NCBI GenBank assembly: GCA_032358165.1
Contig: JAALGY010000039.1
Location: forward strand, 310,001 to 374,000
Source of the DNA: Diplosphaera chodatii
Lineage: Eukaryota; Chlorophyta; Trebouxiophyceae; Prasiolales; Stichococcaceae
Direction of reading: 5' to 3'
Length of the DNA: 64,000 nt
Under the pieces are notes generated by a model. That model worked only from the letters and a program-made list of their open reading frames with translations, ran no database searches and had not been told where the DNA came from. Positions 17,700-41,953 of this stretch are shown one piece after another. The position numbers and the translations under genes are program-made. Each line of letters starts with the position of its first letter. Positions within the stretch are counted from its first letter, which is position 1.

Positions 17700-20353
17700 T
17701 CAGTCGCCAGACTGTACTTTGCAGTCGTCTAAGATGTCGCCATGCCTGATGTCGTACTCTGCAAGTGTCGTCGACCCGCCAATTTGCATGCCATAGAAGA
17801 TGAGGACAACGTCGTGCCTCTGTTTGTTGGTCGTGGCACAGTACCACCTGTGCAAATCCTGCAATGCATGTGCGGCAGCGCAGTCCTCAGACACCTAGAC
17901 GGATCAGTGGCTGCAGGTCATGCAGATACCTCCATTGCTGAGGCCTGGCAATGCATTTGGGGTGGCTGGCTGCATACAGCTGCGAGTCCTCATGTCAGGT
18001 AGGTTACCTGGCTAGGACACTTACAGGCAGAACCACGGGTACCGCACCTGCGCAGCTAGATTGCGGGGCACCTCACAGGTCGTCTGGTAGGTGTGACCAT
18101 CCCTGTGACCATCCCTGATCAGAATGACTATGGACTCCACCTCATCGCCTGCCGCCTGCGTGCACACACCGAGTGGTCTTGGTACATCAGCATAGGGACT
18201 GGACAATGCTGTGCAGAATTGCCCTCGTGCTTACCCTCAGGGCAGTGCGGGACCTGAGACACGCTCACCACAGGACCGGCTGGAGGAGGCTCCAACTGTG
18301 CCTGTTGGTCTGCCACTTGCATGGCTGCTGCATCGGCTTGGGGCTGCTCCATTCCTGCCTGTGGGTGTGCCGCTTGGATGGCTGCTGCATTGGCGTGAGG
18401 CTGCTCCATCTCTGCGGGTTGGTGTGCCTCCTGCGCTGCCGCTGCAGCCGAGCGGTCTGCTGTGCCTGTCCTGGTGCGCTTCGATTGCTGCAGGGCCTCC
18501 TCCCCATGTCGCCGTGGGCGCCGCTGGCCGCTGCAGCGGGCTGAGTCCTGCGGGGGCGTTGAAGCTTCCTGCGCTTCCTGTGCTTCCTCCAGGGGCGTCG
18601 CCCCACCACCTTCCTCCAGCGCTTTGCTTGCCCTGATAGTGGCGCCCGCTGCTGCTGGGGCGTCAGCAGGCGGCTGGTTGATGCTCCGGTGGGTGGCCTC
18701 AAAGAGTGCTGTCGCAAGCGCCACAACCACCGGATGCGGGTACCTTGCGGGCGGAGGAACCGCTTGTTCTATTGATTGTTTTTGTATTTGTGGACGTCAG
18801 TTGCGTCGTCTTTACCTCACGCCTATCCATCGACTGTGTTTGTGATTGCACTCAAGTCCAGGCCCTGCATACGATGCAAGCAGCCATATAACCAACCTGC
18901 TGTCCGGCACAAACCCCGGCTCATTCCTCAGATCAATGGTGGCGTGCGGTGTCGGCCGCTGTTTGTAGGACAGCGACACTCGACGGCTGCTGCCAGCCTG
19001 CAACACCGATGGTATGCTATTGTACCTGAATGTGTCCCGATTTGAAGGAGGTTGGACACATGCCCCATGCACCGAGCTGCAGTAAGCAATTGGCTGCGAG
19101 GCCCCAGCGGTAGCAGGGAGGTGACAAAGCCCACCAAGCATAGGGAGGCGCTGTGCATGCCGGAGACTCTGTGCATCGCGGCTGGTATGCGGCCGGCTGT
19201 TGCAAACTGCAACGCATCCCCAGCAAACACCGCGACCTGGTTGGGCAGCAGGTCAACGCGCTGCCATGTGCCTGCCGAGGATTGCACCTGCAGTCCGGAT
19301 GCACCGCATAAACATGTAGAGCTGGCTGCGCAGGCACCTCATCACGACCTGCATGGATTGCTTGTGTGCAGGCAGAACGAACTAGATCAAACCGACTTCA
19401 ACTCGTGCAGATGACGCATTTTCAAAGCACTGATCACACCTGCAGGCCGGGGCCACTTTCACATACTAACGTCAGGAAGCCGCGGTCTGTGTGCTCCTCT
19501 GCAGCATGCCCAGTTGCCCTGCGGCATGCAAGTATGCAGCTTCGCACCAGCCCTTCACACCAGCGTTCAGCTGGCAAGCACCACATGTCCGCCAATCTGC
19601 TAGGAAACGACAGCAACTCCCGGCACAAGGATGCAAATTTATTGCTATTGCACTCATAAGAAATGTGCATTCAGGCCAGCTCACTGTCGTAGCGGATGGC
19701 CTGCAGAGTCGATGCAGGTGCAGTACCAGGCAGCAGCGGCGAGTCGTCCAGAGCACTCGCCAGTGCGTTACCCCGAATGCCCAAGCCCCACAGGCACACC
19801 CGCAGAACTGCCTCTGTGATGTTAGAAAAGCCGTCTGCCACCTGCGGTACAGCGGGCTTAGTCAGCACCCGCCTCACCAGAGCGCACAGTGCTGCAGCTG
19901 AGCATCTTTCATCATGCTGTGAAGCAACCAAGGCCACGGCGAACCGTGTGCTGCCCCCGAGATGATGAGGGCTGGGGGAGATGCGCACCGCAGCAAGCCA
20001 TGCATCCATTGAGCCTGGCGCCGTGGCCTGGCCCGGTGTGTACTCAAGCAGTGTCTTCAGCGGCAGGCGCTTCAAACCAGGCATCGCTGCGGCTGAGCCC
20101 TCGCATCTTAGAGTCCTGCTGTAGGCCATCTGGGCGCCCTGCGTAGGCCGACTACTTTGGTTATAGCATGGCTGCCCAGAACACATGAACACGGGGTCGT
20201 CGTGTGACGTACCTGTGCCGCAATGCTAATAGTGTCTTGTAACGTCAGCACGATGTATCTGTCCGTTCGCAGGGCGTGCTTCACAATGTGGCGAACACCC
20301 ATCCCATCCTCCCAAGGCATCGATGCAACTCCGGTGTTCACGCTCTTGATCAT
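17700..20353 (-). pseudogene. Array copy 1: 2OG-Fe(II) oxygenase with SUMO-like tail, exon 4 frameshifted
   Basis: Exons: 20213-20353, 19989-20138, 19685-19841, 19440-19518, 19135-19287, 18897-18997, 18235-18743, 18048-18148, 17700-17858. The oxygenase keeps EEHTDRGFLTL (His and Asp iron ligands), the distal His in RIPAAMHRV and the 2OG Arg in RRVSLSYKQRP. Exon 7 is extra long (509 bases) with three 19-residue repeats (AEMEQPHANAAA type) and SKRTRT as possible nuclear signal. The tail has SIVILIRDG and, in the last exon, DLHRWYCATTNK...IFYGMQIGGSTTLAEYDI, a divergent ubiquitin fold ending SGD-stop. Exon 4 is 79 bases against 80 in all but one paralog (74 in copy 4, which keeps phase), a one-base deletion before HTD that shifts the frame unless another acceptor is used. 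It may be a pseudogene or carry a sequencing error. The intron 4 donor is GT. Confidence 0.72.
18300..18430 (-). repeat. 57-bp coding tandem repeat in copy 1 linker
   Basis: About two and a half units of 57 bases encode 19-residue repeats, minus-strand peptides AEMEQPHANAAAIQAAHPQ, AGMEQPQADAAAMQVADQQ and a partial AQLEPPPAG. They lengthen the linker between oxygenase and ubiquitin-fold tail only in this copy. Confidence 0.8.
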
Positions 20354-21110: not shown

Positions 21111-23656
21111 CTAGTCGCCCATTTGGCTTATCTCCACTTGGATGATATCCCCATCTTCGATCTCCTCATCAAGTCTGTGCCCCTCATCAAGGTCCAAACC
21201 CCCGCAGATGAGGCGCAGGTGAGTCAGTGAGCTGCGATCGATGCTCATCGCTCGACAGTATCTGTCCGCCACCTCCTGCGGCGTGCAAGATGGAGTTTTG
21301 AGATCAGGTGTACACAAGGCATGTTTGCATATACCGACTGGGATATGCAACCCACTGACTGCTGAGGACTTGTTGCAGGCATTGCCGCAGATAGGTGCAG
21401 ATGCACGCTCGTGCAGTGGTTGGTGTGCTTGCTGCCTCGTTGATGTCATGCCGCCATGTCATGCCCAGCAGTACACGATCATACCCGCAGGGTGTGGTGC
21501 CGGCCCGCCTTTATCCCAATCCTCCTGATACCGTCCACGTCTTCCATTGAAAAATGGATTCGCCGTTGTGCTGGCTGCGTAGACGCCTGCACACAGCAAA
21601 CCATGCCTGGCACATGCTTCAAGATGTGAGGCCAACTGCTCTGCAGACATTGGCAGGAGGCACTTGCCCATCTACCATGGCCACAACGGAATATTTACCT
21701 GCTGCGATGGTGAAAGCGGTTGCGTCGGCTGGTAGGTGGCCCCGTGCACCGGCTCTTGGCCCGAGGACTCTTCTGCGGAGGACTCTTCTGCTGTGCTGGT
21801 CCTGGCGCGCTTGGACCGCTGCAGGGGCTCCTCTGCTCCCTGAGACGAGCGCGGCCGCCGGCTGCTGCGAGCTGCTGCCTGCAGCTGCTCTGCTTCCGCA
21901 CCATCCTGCTCGTGCGGCTCGCCTGCATTGGCGAAGCTGCCCGGCGCCGAGGTGGCGGCAGGCGACAGGTTGCTGCTCCGGTGGGCAGTCGCGAACAGCG
22001 CTGTCGCATGCGCCACCGTCAGGGGGTGCGGATACCTGTTAGGCAGGGGAGCATGGACCTCACTGCGTTGCCGAACATACAACAGGCGCAACATCCCCCA
22101 AGGCACTGCGGCCAGGCATGTGCAGCAGATGTTCTGGCGGTGCGGGACAGCACATATAGGCAGCCCTACAGCAGACCTCTTGTTCGGCACGAAACCAGGG
22201 ACATTGCGCAGGTCAATGACTGCATACGACGCTGGCCGCTGCTGGTAGGCCAGCGACACGCGTGGGCTGCTGCCCTGCTGCAAGCAGCAGGACGCCTGAC
22301 TGTCCGTTCTGACAGGTGGGGTCTGAGCACTGTGAACACTGTGTTGCGTGCAGGTGTGGCAAGCTGCAGCATGCAGCGCAGCGCAGGTGCTGAGCGTGCA
22401 GGCGGGCGGGAGCACAATGTGCTGCTTACCTCGGACAGCATGACTCTGTGCTGTGCTGACGGGATGGCGCCGGCTGTTGCATACTGCAGGGCCTCGCCAG
22501 CAAACACCGCAACCTGGTTATGCTGGAGTGTGACGGGCTTCCATGCGCCGTCAAAAGGACGCCTCACCTGCGGCACAATGTATCGACTTTGCACCGACAT
22601 GCGAGGATGGCTGCGACAAACACACACCTGTTGTAGCACCTCATGGACATGTGGTGTATGCCCATGATGCCATCAGCATGAGCACAGTACATCTGCATGG
22701 AACGAAACCAAAGTAAGCCTACCTGCAGGCCAGGAGCACTCTGCCATTGTACGCTCAGCAGACCGGGGTCTGTATGCGCCTCAGCGGCGATGCCGTGCTG
22801 CCCTGTAGCATGCCAGAACCCATGGTAAGTGCTCAATATATGCAATTTAGTATTGCAGGCACTGTGTGAAACGCTATTCGTACCCAACTGACAGAGAAGT
22901 ACCACAGGACAAGCTGGCATGGTTGCCGAGGGTATCTGGCTCGTGTGCGTAGGACAGCTCACCGCTGTGGCTGGTGGCCTGCAGGATGGACGCAGGTACA
23001 ACACCCGGCATTGGCGGCGAGTCGTCCAGTACCCCTGCTAGCGCTGTGCCAGGCATGCCAATCGCCCGCAGGCAGACCCGCAACACGGCATCCGAAATGG
23101 CTCGAAAGCTGTTGGCAACCTGCAGCAATGCAGACAATACAACCCTTCCACCTTGTGTTCGATATCCAGAATGCGACTCAGCGCCACGAACAGGACGACC
23201 CAGTCCTTGACTCGGCGGCAAGAAACCCTAGACGAATGTGACAGCCCGGCATCTCGACTGCAGGGCTGCACACCCTGGGAAGCCACAGCTCCAGCGCATC
23301 CGGCACTGCGGCCTGGCCAGCTGTGTAGGTGAGCATTATATCCTGCGGCCGTTCCCGACCGGGCACGGCTGCTGTTGACTCCTGGCTGCTGACCACGTGG
23401 CTGTAGCTCAGCTGCAATCCCTGCGTGGCCCTCAAACTCGGTCACCTTGCGTGCTTCTGAAGGGACTGCGCAGGATGGACGCAAATGCGATTCGGGTTCA
23501 CACCTGTGTCGCGATGCTAACGCTATCCTCTACGGTCAGGACGACACATCCCATCTCTTGCAGGCCATACAGTACCACATCATGCGCCGGCTTCTCATCA
23601 TCCCAAGCTGCTGTCTGATAGTGATCTGAGCACCTCACGTTGATGATCGGCGCCAT
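21111..23656 (-). CDS. Array copy 2: 2OG-Fe(II) oxygenase with SUMO-like C-terminal domain (complete)
   Basis: Exons: 23504-23656, 23274-23420, 22963-23119, 22723-22802, 22430-22567, 22177-22277, 21699-22035, 21485-21586, 21111-21275. The total of 1380 bases gives 459 residues with consistent phase. N-terminal DIOX_N-like exon (MAPIINVR...AAWDDE), then EAHTDPGLLSVQW (iron ligands His, Asp), AIPSAQHRVML (distal His) and PRVSLAYQQRP (2OG Arg). A linker follows with SKRARTS and EESSAEESS acidic repeats. The tail runs from RRIHFSMEDVDGIRRIGIKA to VADRYCRAMSIDRSSLTHL, RLICGG and DEEIEDGDIIQVEISQMGD-stop. It resembles SUMO (a YCQRQG-like helix and GD.I.V end) but terminates GD, not GG. By family such oxygenases hydroxylate or desaturate small molecules or proteins; the substrate here is unknown. 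It is the best intact member; its intron 4 donor is normal GT. Confidence 0.85.
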
Positions 23657-25529: not shown

Positions 25530-27894
25530 TCAGTCGCCTTTCAAAAACAGACAAAGATGGATGACCACCCCTGATTGCATCTTGAAATCGACTAATGTTC
25601 TCGTTGGATAGCTTGACATCTGCTGCCCAGCCCAGATCAAGCGCTGCTGATCAGGCGGTATGCCTTCCTTGTCTTGAACCGCCAATTCCAAGTCCTGCAT
25701 TGCAGCACCATTCAGTAGCACCGTAGGCACGTGTTTGCAAACAACACTCAGTGAAGCAGACCCTAGCAGCAATCCTTTGCGGATGTCGGCCAAAGCCAGG
25801 ATCTGCAGGAACCGGCGCGGGCGATCTATGACCCGTACATGGTTGAAATTACATGTAGCCACGGAATGTGTAAGCATGCACCTCCACTGTCGACGTCCGG
25901 TCCATCAACAAATTGATGGTCTTGCCTGTCAGAGTCTTCACGAACACCTGCATCTTTTGCTGCTGCGAGCTGCCATGCTCCTGCGTGCAGCCAGATGCCC
26001 CGAGTATATGTACGACGCGATGCCATGACAATGCTACACGCTCCAAGTAGGTGCTGTGGGGCCTGCCGAGGCTGCTGACCATGAGCTGAGCTGCCCGCAT
26101 GCTCGGCTTGTGAGACAGCAGGCGGAGGCTCTGCTGCATGAGATGATGCTGAATTCCTGACCTGATGTGGTGTGGTGGTCCTGGCGCGTTTACGGCGCTG
26201 CAGCTGCCCTGCTTCTCGGTGCTCTGCGCTTGCTGGCGGGTCATTGATGCTGCAGTGACTGGCCTCGAAGAGCGCCGTCGCATGCGACACAGCCAGCGGG
26301 TGGGGGTACCTGCAGAACCCCCGCCCATACATTGCCATGACCGAGTCCGAAGCAGCGTCCTGCCCCTCGTACGTTACACGTCATGTATGCAAGGCCAATT
26401 TCTGCATGCAATGCATGCAGCCGGGAAATACACCTGCTATCGGGCACAAAGCCAGGCGCATTGCGCAGATCGATGATGGCATGCTGGGCGGGCCTCTGCT
26501 TGTACGCCAGCGACACCCGTGAGCTGCCAGAACCCTGCAAACAGACAGGCTCGCATGTTGCAACACTGTCGATCAAGGGAGTGATCCGCTGCACGGATGC
26601 GCTGCGCTCTGTGGCATGCAGCGCAGCACAGTGCATGATAGTGATGGGTCCGTTGCACACCACTTCCTGGTAGGTCGTAGGCTCCAGCACGACTCTGTGG
26701 GTTGCAGCTGGGATGCGGCCAGCTGTTGCATGCTGCAGCATATCCCCGGCAAACACAGCAACCTGGTTGTGCGCAAGGTTCACCCGCTGCCACTCGCCTG
26801 CTGGAGAGTGTACCTGCAGCCAACGTGCGATAGTAGCCTCGGATGAGCATGTTTGATGTGCTACGGTCATGCAGTAGAGCTGCAGAAAGGTCGGAGGTTG
26901 CACACGGTTGTGCATGATGCAAACAAGCTCTGGCAATGCACGTGCATCGTCACATGGTGGTGAAACTAAACGTCGCCTTGCCTGCAGTCCAGGAGCGCTG
27001 TCCCAAACCACAGTCAACAGGCCGCGGTCTACGTGTGCCTCTGCGGCATTTGGCTGACTTCCTGCGACCCGAAACACAACCTGCTGTTTTGTTCTGCAGC
27101 ATCACGCTTGGCATCCGGCTCCAACTTGCATGCTTGCTGTCATATGTCACGTCAGCAGCATGCAGTAGCCATGAATGCTCTGCCACACACACTTAGAAGG
27201 TAGAGGAAGCAAAGCTCACGGCTGTAGCTGATGGCCTGCAGAAGGGACGCCGGTGTAACGTATCGCGTGTGCTCTGTGTCGTCCAGAACTCCTGCCAGGG
27301 CATTGCCTGGCATGCCCACTACCCTCAGGCACACCCGCAGCACGGCATCCGCAATGGCACAGAAGCTGTCTGCCACCTGCAAAGACACAGCCATTTGAGA
27401 GCTTCAGCCCCATGCACGCTGCCAAGTTGTCTTTGCGTAGTAATGTCGTTTCACATAAGGCACAGGCCCTGGTCAGCAGACCCGCCAATGTCTGCGCTGC
27501 CCCAGCAGCCTGCGCACCTTGGCGAGCCACAGCCCTCGGTACGAACGTGATGGTTCACCAGGTATGTAGTCCAGAAGCGTCTTATGGGGCAGCCGCTTCA
27601 TGAACCAAACAGCTGAATCCTGGCAGTCCACCAGATCGCTGTACGCCAGCTGCGTGCCCTGCGCGGTGATGATCTTGCTGTCACAATGTGTAACGTGCCG
27701 CATAGGCAATGCGCCTGCGTGCGCCTGATATCATCCGCCTGATATCATACCTGGGCCGCAGTGCTGACGCTGTCGTCCACCGTCAGCACAATATATCCAT
27801 GGTATTGCATGCCGATCCGCACAATGTCACGAGCGGTTTCATCACCCCACCCCGCTGAATCTCCGGAGTTGCTGACGCGAATGATCGGCGACAT
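25530..27894 (-). CDS. Array copy 3: 2OG-Fe(II) oxygenase with ubiquitin-like tail
   Basis: Exons: 27751-27894, 27518-27658, 27220-27376, 26982-27061, 26661-26813, 26434-26534, 26099-26309, 25882-25980, 25530-25694. Oxygenase motifs are intact: [34 protein letters not shown]. The linker has RRKRARTT, a possible nuclear signal. The tail is the closest to ubiquitin at its N-terminus ([13 protein letters not shown]), then DKEGIPPDQQRLIWAGQQ, ending LFLKGD-stop. The Lys48 position is Gln; the Ile44 position is kept. The intron 4 donor is GC (CAG/GCAAGG). The donor after exon 7 aligns with the paralogs' CAG/GT but reads CAT/GCGGGC; exon 7 would then be 211 bases, the length in copy 5, so phase is kept, yet this donor is weak. 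If it fails, the ubiquitin-like tail is lost. Closest relative: copy 4. Confidence 0.78.
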
Positions 27895-28044
27895 GACTGC
27901 AGGCCCCGGATGTGAAGTGCTGCAGTGATGACAAAGTGGAAATGGGGCTTGCAACTGATGCTGCATGAGAGCATGACGCCATTTGAATCACCGACCGACA
28001 GCTTAACCGTGTATTTATATAGGTAGGCCCCAAGGCATTGGAAA
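27895..28044. promoter_or_regulatory. Upstream region of array copy 3
   Basis: 150 bases between the copy 3 start codon and an insert of different composition. It includes an AT-rich TATTTATATAGG (about 28011-28022) some 120 bases upstream of the start codon on the minus strand, which may act as a TATA-type element. Prediction from sequence only. Confidence 0.35.
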
Positions 28045-28525
28045 TGTCTAATAGACTAGAGGTTTAAAGTAGGGTCACGGACCCGGCAAGGGGTTGGTAT
28101 TGTGACGATAAGGGTGTGAAGGGACAGCAAGGTGACGGCACGTGCCGCAGAAGCGGCATCAACAGCACGCACACGCACGCCAGGAGCGTCCGGCTTTGCG
28201 TGGGGCTTTATAGCACGACACAGTATCAGAACACCGTTAATGACGGGATCGCCGATGCCGCGCTGCTAAAATAGCTTTTTAGTGCCGACCGCCCAACACG
28301 GAGGCCAGCCACCGCGTGGTAGCTTGGCATGACGGTGGAGATTGCCCACGCAGAAGGGCCGCGCGTCGCGTGCAGCACTGCGGCCGGGGTGACCGCTTGT
28401 AACGTTTACGGGGACCGCGTGAGAGCAATACGAGAAATCCCAGTGAAGTACGGAGAACACGGGGTGGAAAGACGGGGTGCCGTGCTGAGAAAGCCGGCAA
28501 ACTACCAAAGGGATTAAGAGGTCCA
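28045..28525. mobile_element. Insert of unlike composition (possible solo-LTR or decayed element)
   Basis: This 480-base block lacks the frequent TGCA words of its surroundings and has runs such as AAGGGTGTGAAGGGACAG and GTACGGAGAACACGGGG. It begins TGTC and ends GTCCA, and it interrupts an array spacer that otherwise resembles other spacers. I recognise no coding frame or clear target duplication, so the element type is a guess. Confidence 0.35.
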
Positions 28526-28554
28526 CTGAAAATTGCTGTAAAACTGTTAGCCTT

Positions 28555-29015
28555 GGGGCAATCATCTGTTCACACCTTCACATCTGCACAGGAACAAGCA
28601 ATGACTGCACCATATGATGCTGACGCTGAATTCCCACAATGTGTCGCCCCCGCATCACGATTGGCTTGTAATGCTGAAGAAACATGCGGGCACTTCTTTG
28701 CAAACGTCACCAGCATTGGATGCATGCCGGCAACTGGACCAAGCATGCGATGATGACACAGGAATGAGCTGTGCTTGCTAATGCACCAGAGCTGACGAGG
28801 CTGCTGAACAGCTTGCACAGTGGGCAGTCGCTATTGACTAAAGGCACCTTTGAACCTTCAGCACCATGCCAAGATTGGTACTACATCCTACACTGGCTAA
28901 GCGGGAAGTACAGGTAAGCGGCAAAAGTCATCGTATGGCAGGCCTGTGGCAGCTCACTGCAACTCCTGCCGGTAGCTACAAACCCGGTCGCCTGCCATCA
29001 GCGCTCATTTCGCTG
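28555..29015 (-). repeat. Paralogous 3'-flank block, downstream of copy 4
   Basis: Shares clear blocks with 31500-31989 and, more weakly, 35040-35461, for example GAGGCTGCTGAACAGCTTGCAC, GGGCAGTCGCT, CACCTTTGAACCTTCAGCACCATG and CATCGTATG.CAGGCCTGTG. Each block lies just downstream of an array gene, so the duplicated unit was gene plus 3' flank. Confidence 0.75.
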
Positions 29016-31352
29016 TCAATCCCCGGTCAGTCTGATGACCAGAAGCACAACAGCCCCTGATTGAATGTGGTAGTGCGCTAGGGTCCCGCTGTCCTCGAGC
29101 TGCCGCCCAGCAAATATCAATCGTTGCTGATCGACCGGTATGCCTTCCAGGTGTTGTACAAGCTCCTTCAGCTCCTACAATTTAGATTATGGTTGCATGA
29201 GTGAGTAGAGTGCAATGTGCCTGAGGCCAGGTCATTCACGACACCGTGAGCAACTTCAGCAGTGGTTGCAATCCTTGCAAAGCAGACACCTGCACCAAGC
29301 TTTGTGCCTTGCAGGTCAGGTCCAAGTCTCTGCAGACAGACATCAGCCACAGATGCAGTCCACACCTCCACTGTCGCATCTTGATCAATGTCCGCAGTGA
29401 TAGTTTTGCCCGTCAGCGTCTTGACGTAGAACTGAATGGGTTGCTGTGCCACAGTGCTGTACCCCTGCAAGCAGATGCCAGATGCTTGCGATACTCAGCT
29501 TTATGAAGCCAGGACGATGCTGTCAACACAACAGGCAGTGTATGTTAAGGCATGCCAACACCGTTTGGCGGTGAGGCACCTGCTTGGCATGTGTGTCGTC
29601 ATAGGTTGGCTCGAGTTTTGCTTCACGCAGCGAAGCAGGAGACAAGCTGTGATCAGCTCCGCTTGTTCTGGCACGTTTGCTCTGATGCGGCTGCCTAGCA
29701 TGCTGGTTCCCTGCGCAAGCTGGCAGCTCGTGTATGCTTTGGTGAGTGGCCTCGAAGAGCGCGGTCGCATGTGCTACCACCAGTGGGTGGGGGTACCTAA
29801 AAGGCAAGGACAACAACAACCCTGGAAGTGACACTACACACGCTACCTCCTGCGACCTTGGGCACGCCACGCACTCTTATGTACATATGTGAGGATAGAC
29901 GCAAATGGCAATGCTGTCATGCCTGCTGTCTGGCACAAAGCCGGGCACACTGCGCAGGTCAATGATGGCATGCTGGGCAGGCCTCTGCTTGTACGCCAGC
30001 GACACCCGTGAGCTGCTGAAAACCTGCAGCAAACAGGCTGTCACTCTTCACCTGGCTGTCGAGTAAGGGGATACTCTGCTGCATGGATGCGCTGCGCTTT
30101 GTTGCATGCAGCCCTGGACTGCCAATGGTCCCATCTCGGCACCGCAGGCTGGTAGGTCGTAGGTTCCAGTACGACTCTGTGAGTTGCGGCTGTGATGCGG
30201 CCGGCTGTTGCATGCTGCAGCATCTCGCCGGCAAACACAGCAACCTGGTTGTGGTCCAGACTCACGTGCTGCCACTCACCTGCAGGAGAGTACACCTGCA
30301 GGCAATGAGCCCAAGCAGCTTCGGGTGAGCGTCCTTACATTGATACAACAGTGTAGTGTGGGTGCATGAAGATTGAACGATGTGCAAGGTCTGTACACGA
30401 TGGGAACCAACTCTGGCCCTGCATCGTCCTCTGGTGACCTGAATGTTGCCTTGCCTGCAGTCCAGGAGCACTGTCCCACACCACAGTCAGCAGGCCTGTG
30501 TGTGCCTCTGCGGCATCTGGCTGACTTCCTGCACGAAAACGATGAAGTCTCCTGCTCTGTTCAAAAGCAGCACGCTTGGCACGAGACTTCGATCTGCATG
30601 CTGTGTCTCACGGACATTGCAGCATGTGTCAGCCATGACCGCTTTGCCAAAAGTGCTTGGGAGCTAGAGCTTGCAAGCAGCTCACTGCTGTAGCTGATGG
30701 CCTGCAGAAGGGACGCCGGTGCGACGCATGGCATCGGCTCTGTGTCATCCAGCAATCCTGCCAGAGCATTGCCTGGCATGCCCACTCCCCTAAGGCACAC
30801 TCGCAGCACGGCATCCGCAATTGCACAAAAGTTGTCTGCAACCTGCAAGAGTACAGGCGATCAGAAGGCTCCAGATGAACGCCTCAGGGGTACAGGGGTG
30901 CTGCTGGGTGGTGATGTACGCTTTCTGGCGGGCCACAGGCCTTAGCTGGCATGCACATCCTGCGCTGCCCCAGCAGGCTGCGTACCTTAGCAAGCCACAG
31001 GCCTTGATATTGCCTCGAAGGTTCGCCACGCCTATAGTCTAGTAGCGTCTTATGGGGCAGTCGCTTCAGGAACGGAACAGCTGAGTCCTGGCAGTTTACG
31101 AGATTGGCGTATGCCAACTGCGTGCCCTGCGCGGTGACCAATCCCTCTGTGATGACTTGTGTTTGTGCTGCACAACGAAGCTGCATGCATGCATTGCCAG
31201 CCATGTACCTGTGCCGCAAGGCTGACGTTGTCGTCAACTGTCAGCACTACATATCCACTGTCTTGCATGCCCATCCGCACAAGGCCACGAGCGGTTTCAT
31301 CACCCCACCCCGCTGATCCGGCTGAGGTCTCAACGCAGATGATCGGCGACAT
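29016..31352 (-). CDS. Array copy 4: oxygenase lacking the iron-binding Asp, ubiquitin-like tail intact
   Basis: Exons: 31209-31352, 30986-31126, 30686-30842, 30455-30528, 30143-30295, 29923-30023, 29580-29796, 29366-29464, 29016-29174. The 1245 bases give 414 residues in frame. Exon 4 is 74 bases instead of 80: six bases (GAC CGC) are missing, so EAHTDRGLLTVVW becomes [11 protein letters not shown]. The Asp of the HxD iron triad is gone while everything around it is conserved. The distal His (ITAATHRVV) and the 2OG Arg ([11 protein letters not shown]) remain. The linker has QSKRARTS. The tail is strongly ubiquitin-like: [16 protein letters not shown], then [20 protein letters not shown], ending IRLTGD-stop; the Lys48 position is Arg. 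Introns 4 and 6 have GC donors. By family logic it is a non-catalytic oxygenase fold carrying a Ubl. Confidence 0.82.
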
Positions 31353-31989
31353 GGCTGCAGACCCCAAGCTGAAGTGTTGCAATGATGCGAGGGTGGAAAA
31401 ATGAGGCTCGCAGTGCTGGTGTGCTGCTGCATGACACAATTTGAATTCCCGGTTGACAGCTGTCATGTGTTCACAGCTTCACACTGCAGAGTGCAGACTT
31501 CACTGCTTCACACCTCCGCAGTTCGCAGACCTCACAGGCACGAGGAATGACTGTAGCATGTGAAGCTGATGCTATTTCTCCACAATGCGTCGCTACCGCT
31601 CGCGGCTGCATCACCATTTTCTGGTGATGCTGTGCAGACTGCGCAGCGCAGTACCATCATGTGAACATGCAGTGCACTACTCTGCAGGCCTTCCCAAGCA
31701 TTGCGTGCCGGCGATTGGCCAAGCATGCGCTGTTGATACAGTGGCCAGCTGCCACATGCTTGGTGATGCACTAGGGCTGATGATGAGGCTGCTGAACAGC
31801 TTGCACGGTGGGCAGTCGCTGTCCACATTGATCACAGGCACCCCTGAACCTTCAGCACCATGACAAGATGCTGAGACATACACTGGCTTATATGACACGG
31901 AGGCCATCGTATGACAGGCCTGTGCCAGCTCACTGCATTTACAGCTAGCTACAAAGCCAGATCGCCTGCCATCAGCGCCCATGTCGCTG
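31353..31989 (-). repeat. Spacer with paralogous 3'-flank block, downstream of copy 5
   Basis: From about 31500 it aligns in blocks with 28555-29015 and 35040-35461 (for example CTGCTGAACAGCTTGCACGGTGGGCAG and CCTGAACCTTCAGCACCATG). The rest should hold the copy 4 promoter. A minus-strand frame at 31677-31997 is open but its peptide is not conserved in the sister blocks, so I do not call it a gene. Confidence 0.7.
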
Positions 31990-34368
31990 TCAATCACCCC
32001 TCAATCTGAGTACCACATCCAAAACAGCCCCCGATGGGATGTTGTACTGTGCCAGGGTCCTGCTGTCCTCGAGCTGCCGCCCAGCGAAAATCAGTCGTTG
32101 CTGGTCGACCGGTGTGCCTTCCATGTTGGCGATGAGCTCCTTCACCTCCTACATTCAGATGCAATGCATGAGTGAGTAGAGCGCGATGTGCGTGAGGCCA
32201 ACTGAATCACCACACCCTGAGCAACTCCCCCAATGGGTTGCAACCCTTGCAAAGCAGACATTTGCACCAAGCTCTGTGCCTTGCCAGCTCAGACCCATGT
32301 TTCTGCAGACATGCATCAGCCATGAATGTGCCGTTCACACCTGCAAAGTCGCGTGTTGATTGATGTCCACAGTGATAACCTTGCCATTCAGCTTTTTGAT
32401 GTAAATTCGGGTGGTTTGCTGCGCCACATTGTTGTACCCCTGCAAACAGCCAGACGCCAGATGCTCACGACACGCAGCTGTATGAAGCCCACGCAATGCT
32501 GCGAGCACATCAGGCAAGGTGCCTGTTGGGGCATGCTCACACCGACTGGTTGTGAGGAACCCACCTGCTCGGGATGTGTGTGGGCGCACGTTGGTTCGGA
32601 TTTTGCTTCATGCAGCGGGGCGGAAGGCATTTCAGCTCTGCTGGTCCGAGCACGTTTAGGATGATGTAGATGCCCAGCGTTCTGGTCCTCTGCGCCAGCT
32701 GGCGCCTGGTTGATATCCAAATGAGTGGCCTCGAAGAGCGCTGTCGCCTGTGCTACCACCAGTGGGTGGGGGTACCTAGATGGGAAAGACAGCAACGTTC
32801 TGAGCAGTGTGGCACACGCTACTGCTTGCAACCTCTGTGCATGTCAACTGTCTTGTGCGCTACACGTGTAGCAATGCGTGTGCATGCGTCGCTGATAGCA
32901 ATGCATCGTGCCTGCTGTCTGGCACGAAGCCGGGCACACTGCGCAGGTCGATGATGGCGTGCGCAGCCGGCCGCTGCTTGTAGCACAGCGACACCCTCGG
33001 ACTGCTTGCCCTGCTGACGGCAGAAGAAGTCACACCACAGCACTCGGCGGTCTGTTCGCCAGTTGAGACTAGATGGCTTTCGTCTGCTGCCGAATGCCAG
33101 GGCTGGCATGCTGCCAGATGCATGCCATGCACATGCAGCATGAAATGACATAGAGTCAGCTGTACAGCGGCAGGGTGTGAGTCTCACCGCATCCTGCAAG
33201 ACTCTGTGCTGCGTGGCTGGTATGGCTCCTGCTGTGGCGTGCTGCAGAGCCTCCCCAGCAAGCACAGCAATCTGATTGTGCTGCAGCACGAGAGGCTGCC
33301 AGCTGTTGTAAAAAGCACTGTACACCTGCGACAGCATGGCTCACCTATGCTTAGGGAAACATGTAGCACAACTTCAGCACCTTGCAGTATGTCAAAACCG
33401 TGCGCATCGTGCGCATTTCTGAATGCTGCCTATGCAGTAGATGCATGAGATGTAACCGCTCTTGCCTGCAGACCAGGAGCACTTTCCCATATCAAAGTCA
33501 GCAGTCCGCGGTCCGTGTGCGCCTCAGCAGCAGAGCCCTGCTGCCCTGCAACTAAACGTGACATGCAACGGATCACCCCCGCCGGCAGTCATGCATGCTG
33601 TCGATCGACTCGTCAGATGCCCCGAGAGGACTGCAAGACCTGTTTGCGAAGGGTCTCCAAGACCCTGTGCATGCAGGGCAGCGCACCGCTGTAGCTGATG
33701 GCCTGGAGGAGGGATGCAGGTGCAACGCCCGGCATGGGTGGTGAGTCGTCCAGATCTCCTGCCAAAGCGTTGCCCGGAATGCCTACAGCACGCAGACATA
33801 CCCGCAGCGCTGCATCCGCAATGTCTCGAAAGCTGTCTGCCACCTGCAGCACAGCCAGCAGGTCGCCACTGCGCACCGTGAGCTGCTGCAAAGGTGCACC
33901 TGTGATTCGGTTATCAGCAAGCAGTGCGAGATTGCAGTATTGCAAAGAGGCGAATGGTGGCGCACCCTGGGAAGCCAGGACTTGACCAGGTCTGGCGCTT
34001 CGGCCTGACCTGCTGTGTACTCCAGCAGCGTCTTGTGTTGCAGCCGCCTGAGGCCGGGCATTGTTTCAGCTGACGCCTGGCTAGTGACGACATTGCTGTA
34101 GCCCAGCTGCAACCCCTGCATGTCCAAATAGTCAGGTTGCACTTTTGCAGATGTGACCATCATGCACCGCGGTCAGCAGTCACCAGGTAGAACCATGCAA
34201 CGACCAGCATCCTACCTGTGCAGCCAGGCTGACACTGTCATCTACTGTAAGCACGCAGCATCCCATGTCTTGCAAGGCATCCAGCATTATGTCTTGTGCC
34301 TCTGCTTCATCGTCCCATGGTGCTGTTTCAGCCTGATCCGAGGCGCTCACGCTGATGATTGCCGCCAT
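31990..34368 (-). pseudogene. Array copy 5: oxygenase with ubiquitin-like tail, one-base insertion at exon 6
   Basis: Exons: 34216-34368, 33966-34115, 33687-33843, 33466-33545, 33188-33325, about 32912-33013, 32565-32775, 32341-32439, 31990-32148. Motifs: EAHTDRGLLTLIW, AIPATQHRVL, PRVSLCYKQRP; linker PKRARTS. The tail is the best overall ubiquitin match in the window: IYIKKLNGKVITVDI, then [20 protein letters not shown], ending LRLRGD-stop. The Leu8, Ile44 and Val70 positions are kept, Lys48 is Arg and the last Gly is Asp. At the start of exon 6 an extra A (CAGGGCAAGCAG against CAGGGCAGCAG in copy 2) breaks the phase between exons 5 and 6 with any CAG acceptor I can see. It is either a pseudogene, an unusual splice or a sequence error. 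Introns 4 and 6 have GC donors. Confidence 0.72.
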
Positions 34369-34742
34369 TACTGCAGCGCAATTAGAAGCTGAGGTACAAG
34401 CGAAGTGATGCAAATGCGGCTCTGCGTGCGAACGTGTCGGAGACTCGGAGTGAACATGAAGAGCGATGTGATCAGTGCAAACTCACATTCTCACAGGTCA
34501 TTTGCTTGTTCTTGGGGACAACCCAGCAGCACGCGTCAAAATGCCCTGGTGATCGCGTTGTGAGTACCTGCAACCGCTGTCGGCCTGCTTCGCGCTGCAT
34601 CGCCAGCATTGGCCCACTGATGACATTGAGCAATGCGCAGCGCTTTGGCAGCCACCTAGCCTTCCATATGGCTTGGCGGTGATCTGACAGCGTGCAAGCT
34701 CCTCGTCAAGAGTTTGAAGCAGTGCGAGGAACAGGGTTGCCG

Positions 34743-34800
34743 CTTTTGCCTGCCTTTGAGGCCTTCGAGGCCCTCGACGTCTTCGAGGCGCTGATGGCGG
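34743..34800. repeat. Degenerate 9-bp minisatellite (TTCGAGGCC type)
   Basis: Repeated TTYGAGGCC / CTCGACGTC / TTCGAGGCG words in phase, about 390 bases upstream of the copy 5 start codon. Similar in period and core (TCGA) to the minisatellite upstream of copy 7. Confidence 0.6.
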
Positions 34801-34861
34801 TGCTGGATGTGGCACCTTTCGATGCATGTGTTTACACCGGATCACGTCCCTACAGTCTGAC

Positions 34862-34934
34862 CTTGCTCGCAACCGCAATCGACGCGATGCGCCACACCTT
34901 GCTCGCAACCGCAATCGACGCGATGCGCTACAAC
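34862..34934. repeat. 36-bp tandem duplication
   Basis: Two nearly perfect head-to-tail copies of a 36-base unit beginning CTTGCTCGCAACCGCAATCG, ending in GATGCGCCACAC and GATGCGCTACAA. Confidence 0.85.
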
Positions 34935-35461
34935 TGTGGGGTAGCAACGCTGTCCAGCAGCGCACCCTGCTAGCCAATTTGCAAACTGTGGATGTGCTGG
35001 CGGCAATGCACAGCCAGATCCGACAGGCAGCGCAGCAACGTGCCATATGACGCTGACGGAAAGTGTCGCTCGCTCTTGCCGCTGCATCACAATGGTCTTA
35101 AGATGGTGTGCAGCCACCTTGAAAAAAGTGCGCCATTTTGCAGGCCTTTCCGCAACATTGCATGCCAGCAGCTTGACAAGTGTGCGCTGTTGGCATAGCA
35201 GTGAGCTGCTGGCACATGGCTGCTCATGCATTAGGCTGCTGATGAGGCTGATGATCAGGTTGCACAGCGGGCAGGCGGTGCCACTGTGTTGATTACAGGC
35301 AGCTTTGAGACTTCAGCCATGCCGAGATTGGATGAGACAGATGTCAGCCGACATGACACGAAGTTCATCGTATAATAACAGGCCCGTGACAGCGTATATA
35401 CTGAAGACTGTACGGCTAGCTACAAGCGTTGTGGTCTGATGACATGGTGGTGTTCTGCGGG

Positions 35462-37770
35462 TCAGTCACCGCATAGTCTCAGAACCAGATGCAAAATTGC
35501 CCCCGAGTGGATCTGGAACTCTGCCAGGGTCCTGCTCATCGGGTGAAGCTGCTCCCCAGCGTAAATCAGTCGTTGCTGCCTGGGCGGTATGCCGTCCACT
35601 TGCTGTATGAGCTCCCGCAGCTCCTACACCTCACATGCAATGCCTCACTGAGCATAACATGCTCGCAGTGTCCACACCCCTGAGCAACTGTACCAGAAGT
35701 TACGGTTTTGCACAGCAAGCATTTGCACAGATTTCCGTACGTCATTGCAAGAAACCATGCCTCTGCAGATATGCATCAGCCACAGATGCGGTGCACACCT
35801 GCAAAGTTGCATTCTGGTCAATGTTTGCAGTGATGTCTCTCCCCGTTAGTGTCTTGACGCAAATTTGAATGGGTTGCGGCACTCAAGTGCAGTACCCCTG
35901 CATGTAACCAGATACCAAATGTTTGCAATTGTCAGCTGCGTGACGCCAAGACGATACTGTTGACACAAGAGACATGTGCCCTGAGGCATGCTGACATTGA
36001 CTGGCCGTGAGGTCTTCACCTGCTCGGCATGTGTGTAGTCGCACTCTGGCGTGGGGTGTGCTTCATGCAGCGAACTGGAAGACGAGCCATCATCAGCGCT
36101 GCTGGTCCTAGCACGTTTGGATTGGTGCCGCTGCCCTGCATGCTGATCTTCGGCACCAGCTGGCGGCTGATTGATGCTTTCGCGGTCGGCCTCAAAGAGC
36201 GCTGTCAAATCCCGTATAAATATTGGGTGCGGGTACCTACAGGGCGGGGCATCCACAAACGGCGTGACATACACTGTTCAGCTGTGGCACCGACTGCATG
36301 CTTCTCAGAGGGTGCACCCCAAGGTGCAGAAAGCCAGCTCCACGTGTGGTGGTATCAGCAGCGCATCGCACCTGTCGTTTGGCATGAAGCCAGGCATACC
36401 ATTCAGGTCAATCTTGGCGTGCGCTGCGGGCCGCTGCTTGAAGGCCAGTGACACCCGTGGCTGGCTGCCCACCTGCCGCAACCAGGTGAGCCACCTCGGT
36501 GTGACAAGAGAGCAATGCATTTATAAATATGCGCAGCGAGCTGTGGCATACAGCACAGCCCAGGGCAAAGCAGGGTTGAGTGCGCACCACAGCCTGAACG
36601 CATGAACCAGGCCGTAGCACGACTTGGTGGACTGCAGCTTTGATCTGGCCAGCAGTTGCGTACTGAAGTGCATGGCCGGCGAACACAACGACCTGGCTCT
36701 GCTTGAGCTGAACAGGATGCCACTCGCCTGCTTCAGAGAGCACCTGCAGTCGAGGTGCGCGACCAGATCAGGTTGCAAGCGCCGCAGCATTCCCAGGACG
36801 ATGCCCATGGCCGCATATGGCAATCTGAGGCTTTGGCATGTTTCTGGAGGTCGACTTGCCTGTAGTCCGGGAGAATCCTCCCATACCACAGTCAGCAGGC
36901 CGCGGTCTATGTGTGCCTCTGCAGCTTCTGCCTGCCTGCCTATCAACATGCATATAGCCTTTTGGCGATCATGGTGGGTGCTTTGTGCAAGCTTTTCTGT
37001 GCATGCGTCCTCAAAAAACACGACACCAGGACCGCACTCTTATGAGCTGCCTGCTATGCACAGCTGTTGGGACCTCTGTCCATCTGCATGCATATCAGCT
37101 CACCACTGTATTGGATGGCCTGCAGTAGTGACGCGTGTGCAGTGCTTATCGGCCGAGGCTCATCCAGAATGTTTGCGAGAGCATTGCCCGCCATGCCCAA
37201 TGCTTGCAGGCACGCTTCCAGTACAGCATCCGCAATGCCAGAGAAAGCGGCTAAAACCTGCAGCAGAGCGGGCAGCCCAACACTTCAGCCTCACATGCAA
37301 TGCTGCCGATATGCGAGTCCACAGCAGTGTGATCTTCGTGGATTGCATAGATTTTACTTGCCAGACAAGGTTTTGCGGCATCGCAAACGGATTCCACGTG
37401 CGCACCTCAGCGCTCACATTGCCTTCCTCAGGATACTGGTCCAGGATGACCTTGTGTTGCAGCCGCTTCAAAAATCGTTTTCGTCTAGCCGCTGCTGGAT
37501 CCTGGCGCTTGATGAGGTTGCTATATGCCAGCTGCGCAGCCTGCATTGCCAACAAACCTAATCACGCTGGCGCGCCGCAACAGCCCAGAGGAAAGGTGCA
37601 CGCAGAGAGCCAACGCATACCTGGGCGGCCTTGCTGACACTGTCATCTACGTTCAATACGACGTATCCATCTTTCATCATGCCGGTCATCAGCACGCCAT
37701 GAGCACCTCTATCGCCCCACCCCGCCGATAGCGATCTCGTGTGGCAGCTGACACGAACGATTGGCGACAT
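35462..37770 (-). pseudogene. Array copy 6: oxygenase, stop codon just before the ubiquitin-like tail
   Basis: Exons: 37621-37770, 37406-37540, 37104-37257, 36860-36939, 36588-36743, 36372-36472, 36020-36236, 35799-35897, 35462-35623; lengths keep phase. The oxygenase keeps EAHIDRGLLTVVW, the distal His (QIKAAVHQVV) and PRVSLAFKQRP; linker QSKRARTS. Exon 8 begins GGG TAC TGC ACT TGA where copies 4 and 5 have GGG TAC AGC ACT GTG and GGG TAC AAC AAT GTG. The TGA (35883-35885) would end the protein at the linker, although the downstream ubiquitin-like sequence ([33 protein letters not shown], ending LRLCGD-stop) is well preserved. A downstream AG in this exon would shift the phase. It probably yields a tail-less oxygenase, or the stop is recent. 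The intron 4 donor is GC. Confidence 0.76.
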
Positions 37771-39436
37771 GCTGCAGGTCCACCTCGGGTTTCAGGAACA
37801 AGGACCTCATAACACGCTGTGTCCTTGCAAGCAACAAGAGTGAGGTTCTATGGCGTGCTGCACATCTGCACAGACATCTCAGATCTGACTCCTGCTTCGG
37901 AAGCTCATTTGCAACTGTGCCATTTGCGCAATAGAGAGAGATGAAGGCAGCACGCCGACGAGCTTGAACAGCCTGTGATGCATGCCTGTTGTCCTCTGAG
38001 CTGATAGCAGGCTTGGCTGAGGATTCTGCCAATTGGCATCGTGAACATCCACTGCGCTTGAGCGAGCGCAGGCCTGCAGCGATGTTTGAGAGCTCTGTGC
38101 CAAACTATGCTACAAACGTTTCCGGGTTTGCAAGTTGTTTGACTCTTTCAGGAACGTGCGACATCTCCTCAGCGGCCGGTTGGCAGTGGCGCATGCGATG
38201 CATCAAGTTTTTACTGTGTGTGAGCGAAGGATCTAGCTTATAAGCGAAGTTTGAGCGTCTTCTGGACGTGTCAGCGTAGATTGCAGTACAGCTTGACTTC
38301 CGTGATATGCGATGCAGCCGCTTCAACTGCTGTGAGTTTTCCTTAGGCCGCGGCGCTTCGCGCCAGGCGGCATGTACCATTAGGATCGGTCATCATGCGG
38401 ACCTCACCCAGACGGAGAAATCTTCTGCATACAGATATGCATGAGGGGCATGCAGGATAATGCAAACATCAGTTCAGACACATCGATGGTCGATGCTGTT
38501 GCACAGAGCCGCAGATATGCAGTAGCCTGCTCTCCTGCCGCAGCGGTCCATCGTCATGCGTGTTGCTGCACAAGTTTCAGGGCCGCCCTCTCGCCGACAG
38601 GCGGTTGGGAGTATGGTCTGCTGAGCATCGTGCCTGCACGGCCAATGACCTCCGCAGGGGGCCACAGGCGTTGATGCTGCATGCTCAGCACAGGCTGTCG
38701 CCACTGCACCTGCTGTATCGACTGGCTCCCGAGCCGCTGCCGGGTGCCAGGTGTGTGTGTTGCCAGAAGCATCTGACGGTTGCTGCCACTAGAGCTGCTG
38801 CCGCCACGTTATGCAATCCATGATGAAACGAGCACGGACGTCTCAATGCTGGCATGAAGTGCAGATAGATATTCAACGCATCTAGCTGCTGCTGGCACCA
38901 ATGGAGAGCAACCAGTTCACTCGCTGCGGCGGGTACACTCGCTGCTACTGCGGGGGCGATGGAAATGCTGACGGGAGTACCGCAGTTGCTGTGGCAGTGG
39001 TGGCGTGGTGGCTAACGATCTGGTCGGAGGCAGCAGAGCATTGGCAGCATGCAGCCCCAAGCCAGGAAGGGGAGGAGGCACTCATCCTCGTGGCCCAGAT
39101 TGCTAGATATACATCGCAGCGGCACAGCCGGCACAGCCTGCTTGCCTGTTGTCAACCCATCCATGCACCGCAAATGGGCGAGTACTGTTGCTGCTCTGTC
39201 CAAAGATGTATACAAACAGCATGCTCGCACTCCAGCATCGTTTCAAGGTGCTCTGCAAGGTGGAGGTGAACAGCTACATATGCTGATACCAAGCGAAACA
39301 CCGCCGTACTTGCATTTTGTCCAGCGATGCCTGGCAAGCGCTCACTAGACAGCCTATGTGTTTGGGGCGGCACAACCATGCATTCAGCGGGCATTGTCAG
39401 CATGTGCATTGTTCAGGCACTGTTGTATACGCTGTT
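37771..39436. other. Intergenic region, array copies 6 and 7
   Basis: 1.67 kb. Open frames are present (for example around 38560-38823) but none matches array exons or carries convincing splice borders. It should contain the copy 6 promoter and the copy 7 3' end. Confidence 0.45.
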
Positions 39437-41953
39437 TCAGTCGCCAATCAGTCTGCCATGCAGATGCATGGTGGAATCTGGCTGAACGTTCAGGTCGGCC
39501 ATTGTCCACTGCGGGTGCGCCATTATGGCTGTCCCCCCCGAACCTAACCAGGTCTGACCAGGCGGCACGCCCTCCTTTTCACAGGCCATCTCATGCAGCA
39601 TCTGCACCCGACAACAGCATTCAGGACAACGTGTGCAAGAGCAGAACATCACCCGCTGCCAGGCCCAAATCCCGTGTAGCAAGTGCCATCAAAGGCATAC
39701 ATCCTTCAGCAGCATGCGACGTGCTTCCTATATCCATATGCATTGGCTCCATCACCATGTTCGGCCAACATGCCACGCGCAGTCAGAAAAGTTCTGCCCA
39801 GGTACCTGAGCTGTGGTATGCCGGTCTACGTGCAGGACCAGGGTCCGGCCTCTGATGTAGGATTTGACAAATACGTCAAACTTCTCTGGCTGCTCCATGC
39901 TGCCGCAAGTCTGCATACAGCCAAAGTGCTCGATGAGTTCTGGCATGATCCGCAGGACCATGCCGGTTGCAGGTGCATGATACAAGCAAGCTGCCCTCGG
40001 ACCCGCCCGGCGGGCCCACAACAGGTGGCCTTGCGCTGACCACCTGCTGGGCACGTGGGCACTCCTCCGCAGGCCCGGGCTTCGCCTCTTGCAATGACGG
40101 TGGATCCAGGGATGGGCCTGCTGGGCTGGTCATGGCACATGCAGCCTGCTGCACCTGCGCTGTTGCGTGGTCCTGTGCGTCAGCCGGTGGCTTGTTGATG
40201 CATTGCTGCTTTGTCTCGAACAGCGCTGTGGCATGCGCCACCACCAGCGGGTGTGGGTACCTGGATGACATAATGAAGCTGGTACCAATACAAATGCCGT
40301 CGTGTATGCAGACTGCACCGCATATGTTAGGGCGGGCTTTCCGCAGCCGCTGTGTCTCATGCATGTGCGGGACCAGGCATGCAAATAGTGCAAGAGTCGT
40401 CGGCAGCAGTCGACTCACTTGCTGTCTGGCACAAATCCTGGCACGTTGCGCAGGTCGATGATGGCATACGGAGCTGGCCGCTGCTTGAAGGCCAGTGACA
40501 CCCAAGGGCTGTTGAGACCCTGCAGCAAGCAGGAAACCATGCATAAATGTGTCCTCTAAAGACGAGCATTGCAATCACGCACAGGACCGGCCAGCTGTAG
40601 CATGAGCCATGACAATGCTTGGTAGATGATGGGTTCAGGAGCCGCACCACAGCCAGAGGGGTTGACGGCTGGAGCACGACTCTGCTGTGTTTGGCAGCGG
40701 GGATGCGGCCGGCTGTTGCATGCTGGAGCGCTTCGCCAGCAAAGACAGCAACTTGGTTGGTCTCCAGCATGACGTGCTGCCAGTGGCCTGCTGTCGAGCA
40801 CACCTGCGGTTTAACACGTAGAGAGGATCTGATAAGGGTTGTGCGTGCTTAATCAGTTGCGGCAACGTGAACAGGTTCAGCTGGGTCAATGCACATGACA
40901 ATGCATGCCGCCGTTGATGGAATGCAACTATGACACTATTGAGGTTGGAGAACTGAGCCTTGCCTCCAGTCCGCGACTGTTGTCCCACACGACAGTCAGC
41001 AGGCCACGGTCTGTGTGTGCCTTTGCAGCATGCGTCTGCTGCTCTGCAATATGCCATATGGCCTTGTTACAGTGTTTCAGGCAGCACAGCAGCATCTACC
41101 GCCATCTATCAGCATGCTCACATGGTGTCACCACGCCAGCATCAAGGCATGAGCTCCAGGATACAGCCATGACTGGTCTGCCACAGCTCTTGGGAATACA
41201 GCATGGAGAGCGGCTCACGGCTGTAGCTGATGGCCTGCAGCAGGGAGCCCATTGCAATGCTTGGCATTGGCGGCCAGTCGTCCAGGACTCCCGCCAGAGC
41301 GTTGCCTGGCATGCCCAGTCCCCGCAAGCACGCCCGCAGCACGGCATCCGCAACGCCAGAAAAGCCGTTGGCAACCTGCGACAGGCAGGCAGTCGCCTCC
41401 ATTGCCGCTTGCTGCTGGCACGTGCATGCATGCACAAACGCTATGCTGGTATGTAGGCCAGGCTTGCACAGGCCATCAAATCCTGCTCTGCCTTGGATCT
41501 CCCTTGGGATCGAGAAGTTGTATGGGCTGCGCACCTCAGCAAGCCAGGGTTCGACATAGGCTGGCGCTGTGGGATGACCCCATGTAAACTCCAACAGCGT
41601 CTTGTCCTGCAGCTGCTGCAGGCCAGGCGGCACCGCCGCGCCTGCCTCCTGTGAGGTCACAAGGCTGCTGTACGCCAGCTGCGCGCCCTGAACAGTCATA
41701 ATGTCTGGTCACGCCTGAAGCTCGATGTCCGGCGGTCCTGCAACATCCCCAAGACTAGTCCAGTATCGTACTCAGGGTACTGCATGCTGAAACTGCCTAT
41801 GTTCAGTACCTGTGCGACCAGGATGACACTGTCGTCCAGAGTCAGCACGACATATCCATCGTCTTGCAGGCCAGTGCGCACAATTTCCTGTGCAACATTA
41901 TCGTCCCATGCTGCTGACTGTTTGCTGTTGCTCACGTCAATGATCGGTCGCAT
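39437..41953 (-). CDS. Array copy 7: oxygenase with Arg-to-Trp at the 2OG site, diverged ubiquitin-like tail
   Basis: Exons: 41810-41953, 41535-41687, 41219-41375, 40964-41043, 40648-40803, 40419-40519, 40044-40260, 39806-39910, 39437-39601. The 1278 bases give 425 residues in frame. N-terminal MRPIIDVS begins the DIOX_N-like part. HxD is present (KAHTDRGLLTVVW) and the distal His lies in RIPAAKHSRVVL, with one extra residue. The RxS motif that binds the 2OG carboxylate reads PWVSLAFKQRP: Trp (TGG) replaces the Arg found in the six sister copies. The linker lacks the KRAR patch. The tail is the most diverged of the ubiquitin-like set (FDVFVKSYIRGRTLVLHVD, then CEKEGVPPGQ, ending GRLIGD-stop). 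The intron 4 donor is GC (GAG/GCAAGG). It is the most upstream member in the direction of transcription. Confidence 0.82.

Follow-up and report, generated by a model that had tools for sequence, protein, structure and literature searches.

A tandem array of 2OG-Fe(II)-type oxygenase genes with ubiquitin-like or SUMO-like tails, and signs that bodies and tails have been exchanged

The window that we analysed is a stretch of 64,000 nucleotides (nt) from the green alga Diplosphaera chodatii (C33:310001-374000 of an 85.6-Mb, 55-contig genome). That genome has 56 matches to the chlorophyll a/b-binding family, as fits a photosynthetic eukaryote. From 17,700 (the stop codon of copy A) to 41,953 (the ATG of copy G), its minus strand carries seven copies of one nine-exon gene, which bears out the tandem array proposed in an earlier, sequence-only reading of this DNA. 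Exons 1 to 6 (e1-e6) encode the body of a 2-oxoglutarate/Fe(II) (2OG-Fe(II)) type oxygenase, e7 encodes a YPHP segment and a linker, and e8-e9 encode a beta-grasp tail. The copies are lettered A to G by rising coordinate, and the order of transcription is G-F-E-D-C-B-A. An eighth copy, H, lies outside the array. The features are listed below, with the length of the open reading frame (ORF) in amino acids (aa).

39437..41953, minus strand: copy G; nine exons, ORF of 425 aa; ubiquitin-like tail (39806-39910 and 39437-39601); Arg of RxS replaced by Trp; no KRxR
35462..37770, minus strand: copy F; nine exons; ubiquitin-like tail (35799-35897 and 35462-35623); in-frame TGA early in e8
31990..34368, minus strand: copy E; nine exons, ORF of 428 aa when a non-ancestral acceptor is used for e6; ubiquitin-like tail (32341-32439 and 31990-32148); body resembling B, tail resembling D and F
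31353..31989, minus strand: spacer between E and D; homologous to the F-E (34369-35461) and D-C (27895-29015) spacers just past the stop codon
29016..31352, minus strand: copy D; nine exons, ORF of 414 aa; ubiquitin-like tail (29366-29464 and 29016-29174); Asp of HxD lost (two-codon gap); C-like body, E/F-like tail
25530..27894, minus strand: copy C; nine exons, ORF of 395 aa; every motif residue present; ubiquitin-like tail (25882-25980 and 25530-25694)
21111..23656, minus strand: copy B; nine exons, ORF of 458 aa; every motif residue present; SUMO-like tail (21485-21586 and 21111-21275)
17700..20353, minus strand: copy A; nine exons; SUMO-like tail (18072-18155 and 17700-17858); frames of e3 and e4 conflict by 1 nt
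C33:115.9-118.2 kb, strand opposite to the array: copy H; about 210 kb from the array; all nine exons in the same order

We used exon pieces of copy C and tail pieces of B and G as tblastn queries against the window. Exons e1-e7 were matched in all seven array copies; in six of the seven, one or both tail exons were matched as well (in B and G with the pieces taken from them). The tail of A, e8 of B, and e8 of E were taken from reading the sequence instead of from tblastn, and the gene models were built by hand from the splice context around the exons. Counting H, these models have 64 introns (eight in each of eight copies), 57 of them GT-AG and 7 GC-AG. Intron lengths are 74-213 nt (98-181 nt for intron 7, at the junction of body and tail), and the phase is 0 throughout except in intron 3 (phase 1) and intron 6 (phase 2). 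Because the boundaries were picked by eye, the agreement of the splice sites indicates consistency and is not an independent test. In the tail's coding sequence, the intron follows the position equivalent to codon 24 of ubiquitin. The GC-AG introns are at fixed sites (intron 4 in C-G and intron 6 in D and E), where A, B, and H have GT.

We then examined the domains. The Pfam scan of whole ORFs covered B, C, D, E, and G, and each of these spliced ORFs contains both an oxygenase and a ubiquitin-fold domain, as the proposed fusion implies. The oxygenase domain (PF03171, 2OG-FeII_Oxy) is above the gathering score in all five. The tail domain is also above the gathering score, as ubiquitin in C, D, E, and G and as Rad60-SLD in B. 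When scanned alone, all eight tails exceed the Pfam gathering score: C-H match ubiquitin (PF00240), while A and B match Rad60-SLD (PF11976). In a comparison with the genome's own SUMO and ubiquitin, the tail of B is clearly SUMO-like (Z of 8.9 versus 1.0), and A is a narrow case (5.8 versus 4.3). So the ubiquitin-fold tail described in the sequence-only reading is ubiquitin-like in C-H, but in A and B it scores best as SUMO-like.

Could the tail exons be separate small genes that happen to lie after each oxygenase gene? In copy C, the tail begins with a methionine at the ubiquitin position, and in every copy, reading through intron 7 to a stop codon is possible. But in A, D, and E, neither the region ahead of the tail nor the first 12 codons of e8 contain an in-frame ATG, so these tails would have no usable start. 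Also, the tail exons lie at intron distance from the bodies and match in phase (in the chosen models), and the order is retained in H, about 210 kb away. Across the 85.6 Mb, there are at least 67 matches to PF00240 and at least 35 to PF11976 at E ≤ 0.001 (these include the array, and the two lists overlap). With so few tail-domain matches genome-wide, chance does not account for a tail lying no more than a few hundred bases from each of the eight bodies. We therefore give hardly any credence to separate tail genes. TGTAA, an algal poly(A) signal, occurs within 400 nt 3' of the stop codon in two of the eight copies. Nor is it supported that the tails were recently captured from polyubiquitin of this genome: the Pfam matches in the polyubiquitin genes break near codons 31-37, and the array tails break after the position of codon 24. 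(In two other ubiquitin-like (Ubl) genes, L041 and L042, the matches start near codon 20; by eye, these look like other Ubl proteins.)

All eight tails terminate in Gly-Asp followed by the stop codon, and the Gly-Gly end of conjugated modifiers (ubiquitin and SUMO) is absent. With this ending, the tails look like built-in docking domains and not like modifiers. Ubiquitin-ribosomal protein fusions and polyubiquitin also have the ubiquitin fold within a longer protein, and there the ubiquitin is released after Gly-Gly; in the array, the tail is C-terminal and ends in Gly-Asp. Another parallel is with Rad23, Dsk2, and Ddi1, shuttle proteins whose Ubl domain is likewise built in and is not conjugated. 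In the array, however, the Ubl domain is C-terminal, it is attached to an enzyme body, and no UBA domain was found (no match at E up to 0.5 in the five full ORFs). The Rad60/NIP45 family has built-in SUMO-like domains, and the tails of A and B match its Rad60-SLD domain; the array differs in having an oxygenase body and, in the other copies, ubiquitin-like tails.

The bodies have HxD...H...RxS and PF03171 in common with IPNS-type (DOXC-like) oxygenases such as thymine dioxygenase, gibberellin oxidases, and IPNS-like dioxygenases from metagenomes. They differ from these by the fused tail and by their weak similarity, and PF14226 (the N-terminal domain of the IPNS-type class) was not detected in the five full ORFs. 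Solved structures in the PDB that match the body are thymine dioxygenase (5c3p, 4.2e-9), 3on7 (4.8e-9), GA3ox (1.1e-7), and GA2ox (3.2e-7). The HxD...H iron ligands and RxS, which had been ascribed to the whole array, are intact in A, B, C, E, F, and H; D lacks the Asp of HxD and G has WxS. From the sequence, we presume that the genes are spliced and expressed and that their products use iron and 2-oxoglutarate. The Lys/Arg-rich linker that had been described holds up in most copies: KR[AT]R (KRxR), a putative nuclear signal, is present in seven of eight linkers (counting H), with G as the exception. The longest linker exon by far is e7 of copy A (18,254-18,743), whose 163 codons include similar MEQPxA-type segments, as if a short repeat had expanded.

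Not every copy looks healthy. Exon phases had been described as consistent, but they are broken in A (the frame conflict between e3 and e4), in F (the TGA near the start of e8), and in E (which uses another e6 acceptor). Copy H has a 7-bp tandem duplication in e5. Altogether, B and C alone are free of visible flaws; each of the other six copies shows a lesion, lacks a catalytic residue, or depends on an altered splice site. This raises the possibility that the array is mostly a relic, in which a fused gene that was useful at one time multiplied and is now degenerating, leaving one or two functional copies at most. Distant relatives on contig C24 that lack the first iron-ligand His (see below) also fit this explanation. 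Selection argues against it. In the body, the ratio of nonsynonymous to synonymous differences per site (pN/pS) is 0.33-0.61 in all 28 pairs of copies, with Fisher p ≤ 2.5e-8 in the four pairs tested. In e8-e9, pN/pS is 0.46-0.87 in all 28 pairs. Six of these pairs were tested, and all but A-B (0.87, p = 0.24) are significant (p from 0.037 to 1e-4), as expected under purifying selection. (The flawed copies A, E, F, and H were included in these counts, with chosen readings.) By these values, the bodies and the ubiquitin-like tails evolved under constraint, a conclusion that does not extend to the SUMO-like tails. Furthermore, D remains open over 414 aa and has a constrained tail despite its broken HxD, and some of the single-base flaws may be assembly errors. 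Overall, we consider a mostly relic array to be fairly unlikely.

We then asked if bodies and tails share a history, using codon alignments of the body (e1-e6) and of the tail (e7-e9). They do not. The body tree groups C with D and B with E (each with support of 100/99), and it rejects D+E+F (approximately unbiased test, p-AU = 7e-61) and A+B (0.0012). The tail tree groups D+E+F (99/98) and A+B (95/95), and it rejects C+D (0.011) and B+E (0.0041). With e8-e9 only, the same groups were recovered, but the rejections were not significant (0.113 and 0.073). A caveat is that the clades were named after the distances were seen, so the p values of the tree tests are optimistic.

Second, the introns show similar patterns. 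As a baseline, the maximum score in 600 comparisons of non-homologous introns was 17. Between C and D, introns 2-5 score 24, 42, 34, and 41; introns 1, 6, and 7 score 10, 8, and 11; and intron 8 scores 21. Between D and E, introns 6-8 score 20, 49, and 103, and the earlier introns score 8-13. Introns 7 and 8 also score above the baseline for D-F (42 and 43) and E-F (32 and 44). Ten of the 24 other pairs of copies have scattered scores of 18-26, above the baseline maximum, mostly in introns 3-5.

Third, the change in similarity can be placed within copy D. The best breakpoint is at 29,958-29,970 on the minus strand, inside exon 6: before it, 97 of 115 informative sites are C-like, and after it, 58 of 89 are E-like. 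The spacers agree with this. Three of the 28 pairings of spacers or flanks match, namely F-E with E-D, F-E with D-C, and E-D with D-C (74-82% identity over 419-426 nt, starting at most 36 nt from the stop codon). The stretch from e7 of E to e6 of D aligns end to end with the stretch from e7 of D to e6 of C (79% over 2786 aligned nt, out of 2853 and 3363). (The D-C spacer, at 27,895-29,015, exceeds its E-D homologue by about 480 nt.) Copy D, placed between E and C, has a C-like body, an E-like tail, and an E-type spacer, as a single unequal crossover would predict. F has the tail and spacer of D and E but the body of neither, so further exchanges are likely. The differing histories of bodies and tails thus most likely arose by recombination of neighboring genes, and unequal crossing-over between head-to-tail neighbors, near the boundary of body and tail, would be the simplest cause of the mosaics.

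Our preferred explanation is that these are 2OG-Fe(II)-type oxygenases with fixed docking tails, neither cleaved nor conjugated, which would have been exchanged between bodies by unequal crossing-over. We put its probability at roughly 45%. The domain order, the two kinds of tail, the Gly-Asp ends, the conflicting histories, and the change in similarity inside D are features of the sequence itself. Given its Gly-Asp end, the tail would stay unconjugated, as a fixed docking domain. It would likely lead the enzyme to ubiquitin-reading or SUMO-reading proteins, probably in the nucleus; ubiquitin receptors or the proteasome may be among its targets. Crossing-over between head-to-tail neighbors would pair bodies with other tails, as in D with its C-like body and E-like tail, and the new tail would give the oxygenase a new address and likely change its partners. 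We infer the nuclear address, the docking and its partners, the catalysis, and the equation of a new tail with a new address.

A broader idea is that the array generates new pairings of enzyme and address, so that crossing-over at the boundary of body and tail re-aims one catalytic family at different nuclear protein networks in the course of evolution. We offer this tentatively, as somewhat unlikely. If the tails do dock, then recombination between neighbors would change the choice of partners in an enzyme family, with the hybrid D caught along with its breakpoint. B and E, whose bodies are sisters but whose tails are SUMO-like and ubiquitin-like, respectively, would provide a natural test of what the oxygenase gains from each tail.

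Alternatively, the tail might govern the enzyme's turnover and not its place, most likely by passing it to the proteasome, which would make these short-lived oxygenases. Equivalents of L8, R42, and I44, through which ubiquitin binds its partners, are retained in the ubiquitin-like tails of C-F, which would fit docking as well, and the position of the tail after a linker would suit this role. Furthermore, the Ubl domains of Rad23, Dsk2, and Ubp6 bind the proteasome subunit Rpn1 (PMC8008175). But turnover would leave the SUMO-like tails unexplained, and we think that it is quite unlikely to be the tail's function. Or the tail might serve within its own protein, stabilizing it or acting as an autoinhibitory lid, and bind nothing outside it. 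The constant order of body and tail in all eight copies would fit. However, the tails diverge more than the bodies do and sit on bodies from other lineages, which would upset a matched interface, so an internal role seems very improbable.

We also looked for similar proteins elsewhere. The sequence-only reading knew of no described family with this fusion, and our search of the open-access literature found none (subscription papers and preprints were outside its scope). The nearest fusion that we found in print is Ubl-cytochrome b5 (PMC1949818), in which a Ubl is joined to another kind of protein; the partner domain differs, and the portion of that article's text that was examined does not name a 2OG oxygenase fusion. 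Oxygenase body and beta-grasp tail both belong to familiar kinds; against the databases and papers searched, their combination, and its shuffling, appear new.

In protein databases (5.8 billion sequences, searched by shared words), a query with only the body gave 7995 candidates that shared the most words, which we scored. Among the eight matches, the sole close relative is P0133 (E = 3.3e-32), a protein of 223 aa from a 3.5-kb metagenome contig; the other seven are IPNS-like dioxygenases, with E of 5e-7 or worse. P0133 matches copy D in the order e1, e2, e3 (23/48, 20/37, and 36/52 identical). At the sites of introns 1 and 2, it carries additional residues (28 and about 42), and it stops after e3. 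We read it as a member of this gene family in a different organism, probably translated with its introns left in. A second body-only search gave 12 matches, just one of which had an organism name, and it was bacterial (Thioalkalivibrio). No fusion of an oxygenase to a Ubl turned up in the body-only searches or in the scans of viral and prokaryotic contigs described next. A search with the whole protein found no fusion among the best 120 of 4006 matches, which were mostly polyubiquitin, so a fusion could still exist elsewhere. A viral or prokaryotic origin gained no support: there were 65 pattern matches in IMG/VR contigs and 120 in GTDB contigs (two short patterns per scan), but tblastn confirmed none of them.

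Within the genome, two loci (L038 and L039, C24:637000-655000) are distant relatives of the body. They have exons like e3-e7, in which the first iron-ligand His is replaced by Thr (EATVDRG). Only weak tail matches (E of 0.08 or worse) were found in these 18 kb, with no PF00240 or PF11976 match among those listed there. These loci are possibly a sister lineage that is inactive or altered.

No RNA family reaches its gathering score. Elsewhere in the window, an open frame at 44,162-44,917 on the minus strand has a weak match to protein kinases (Pkinase, E = 8e-4, under the family's cut-off).

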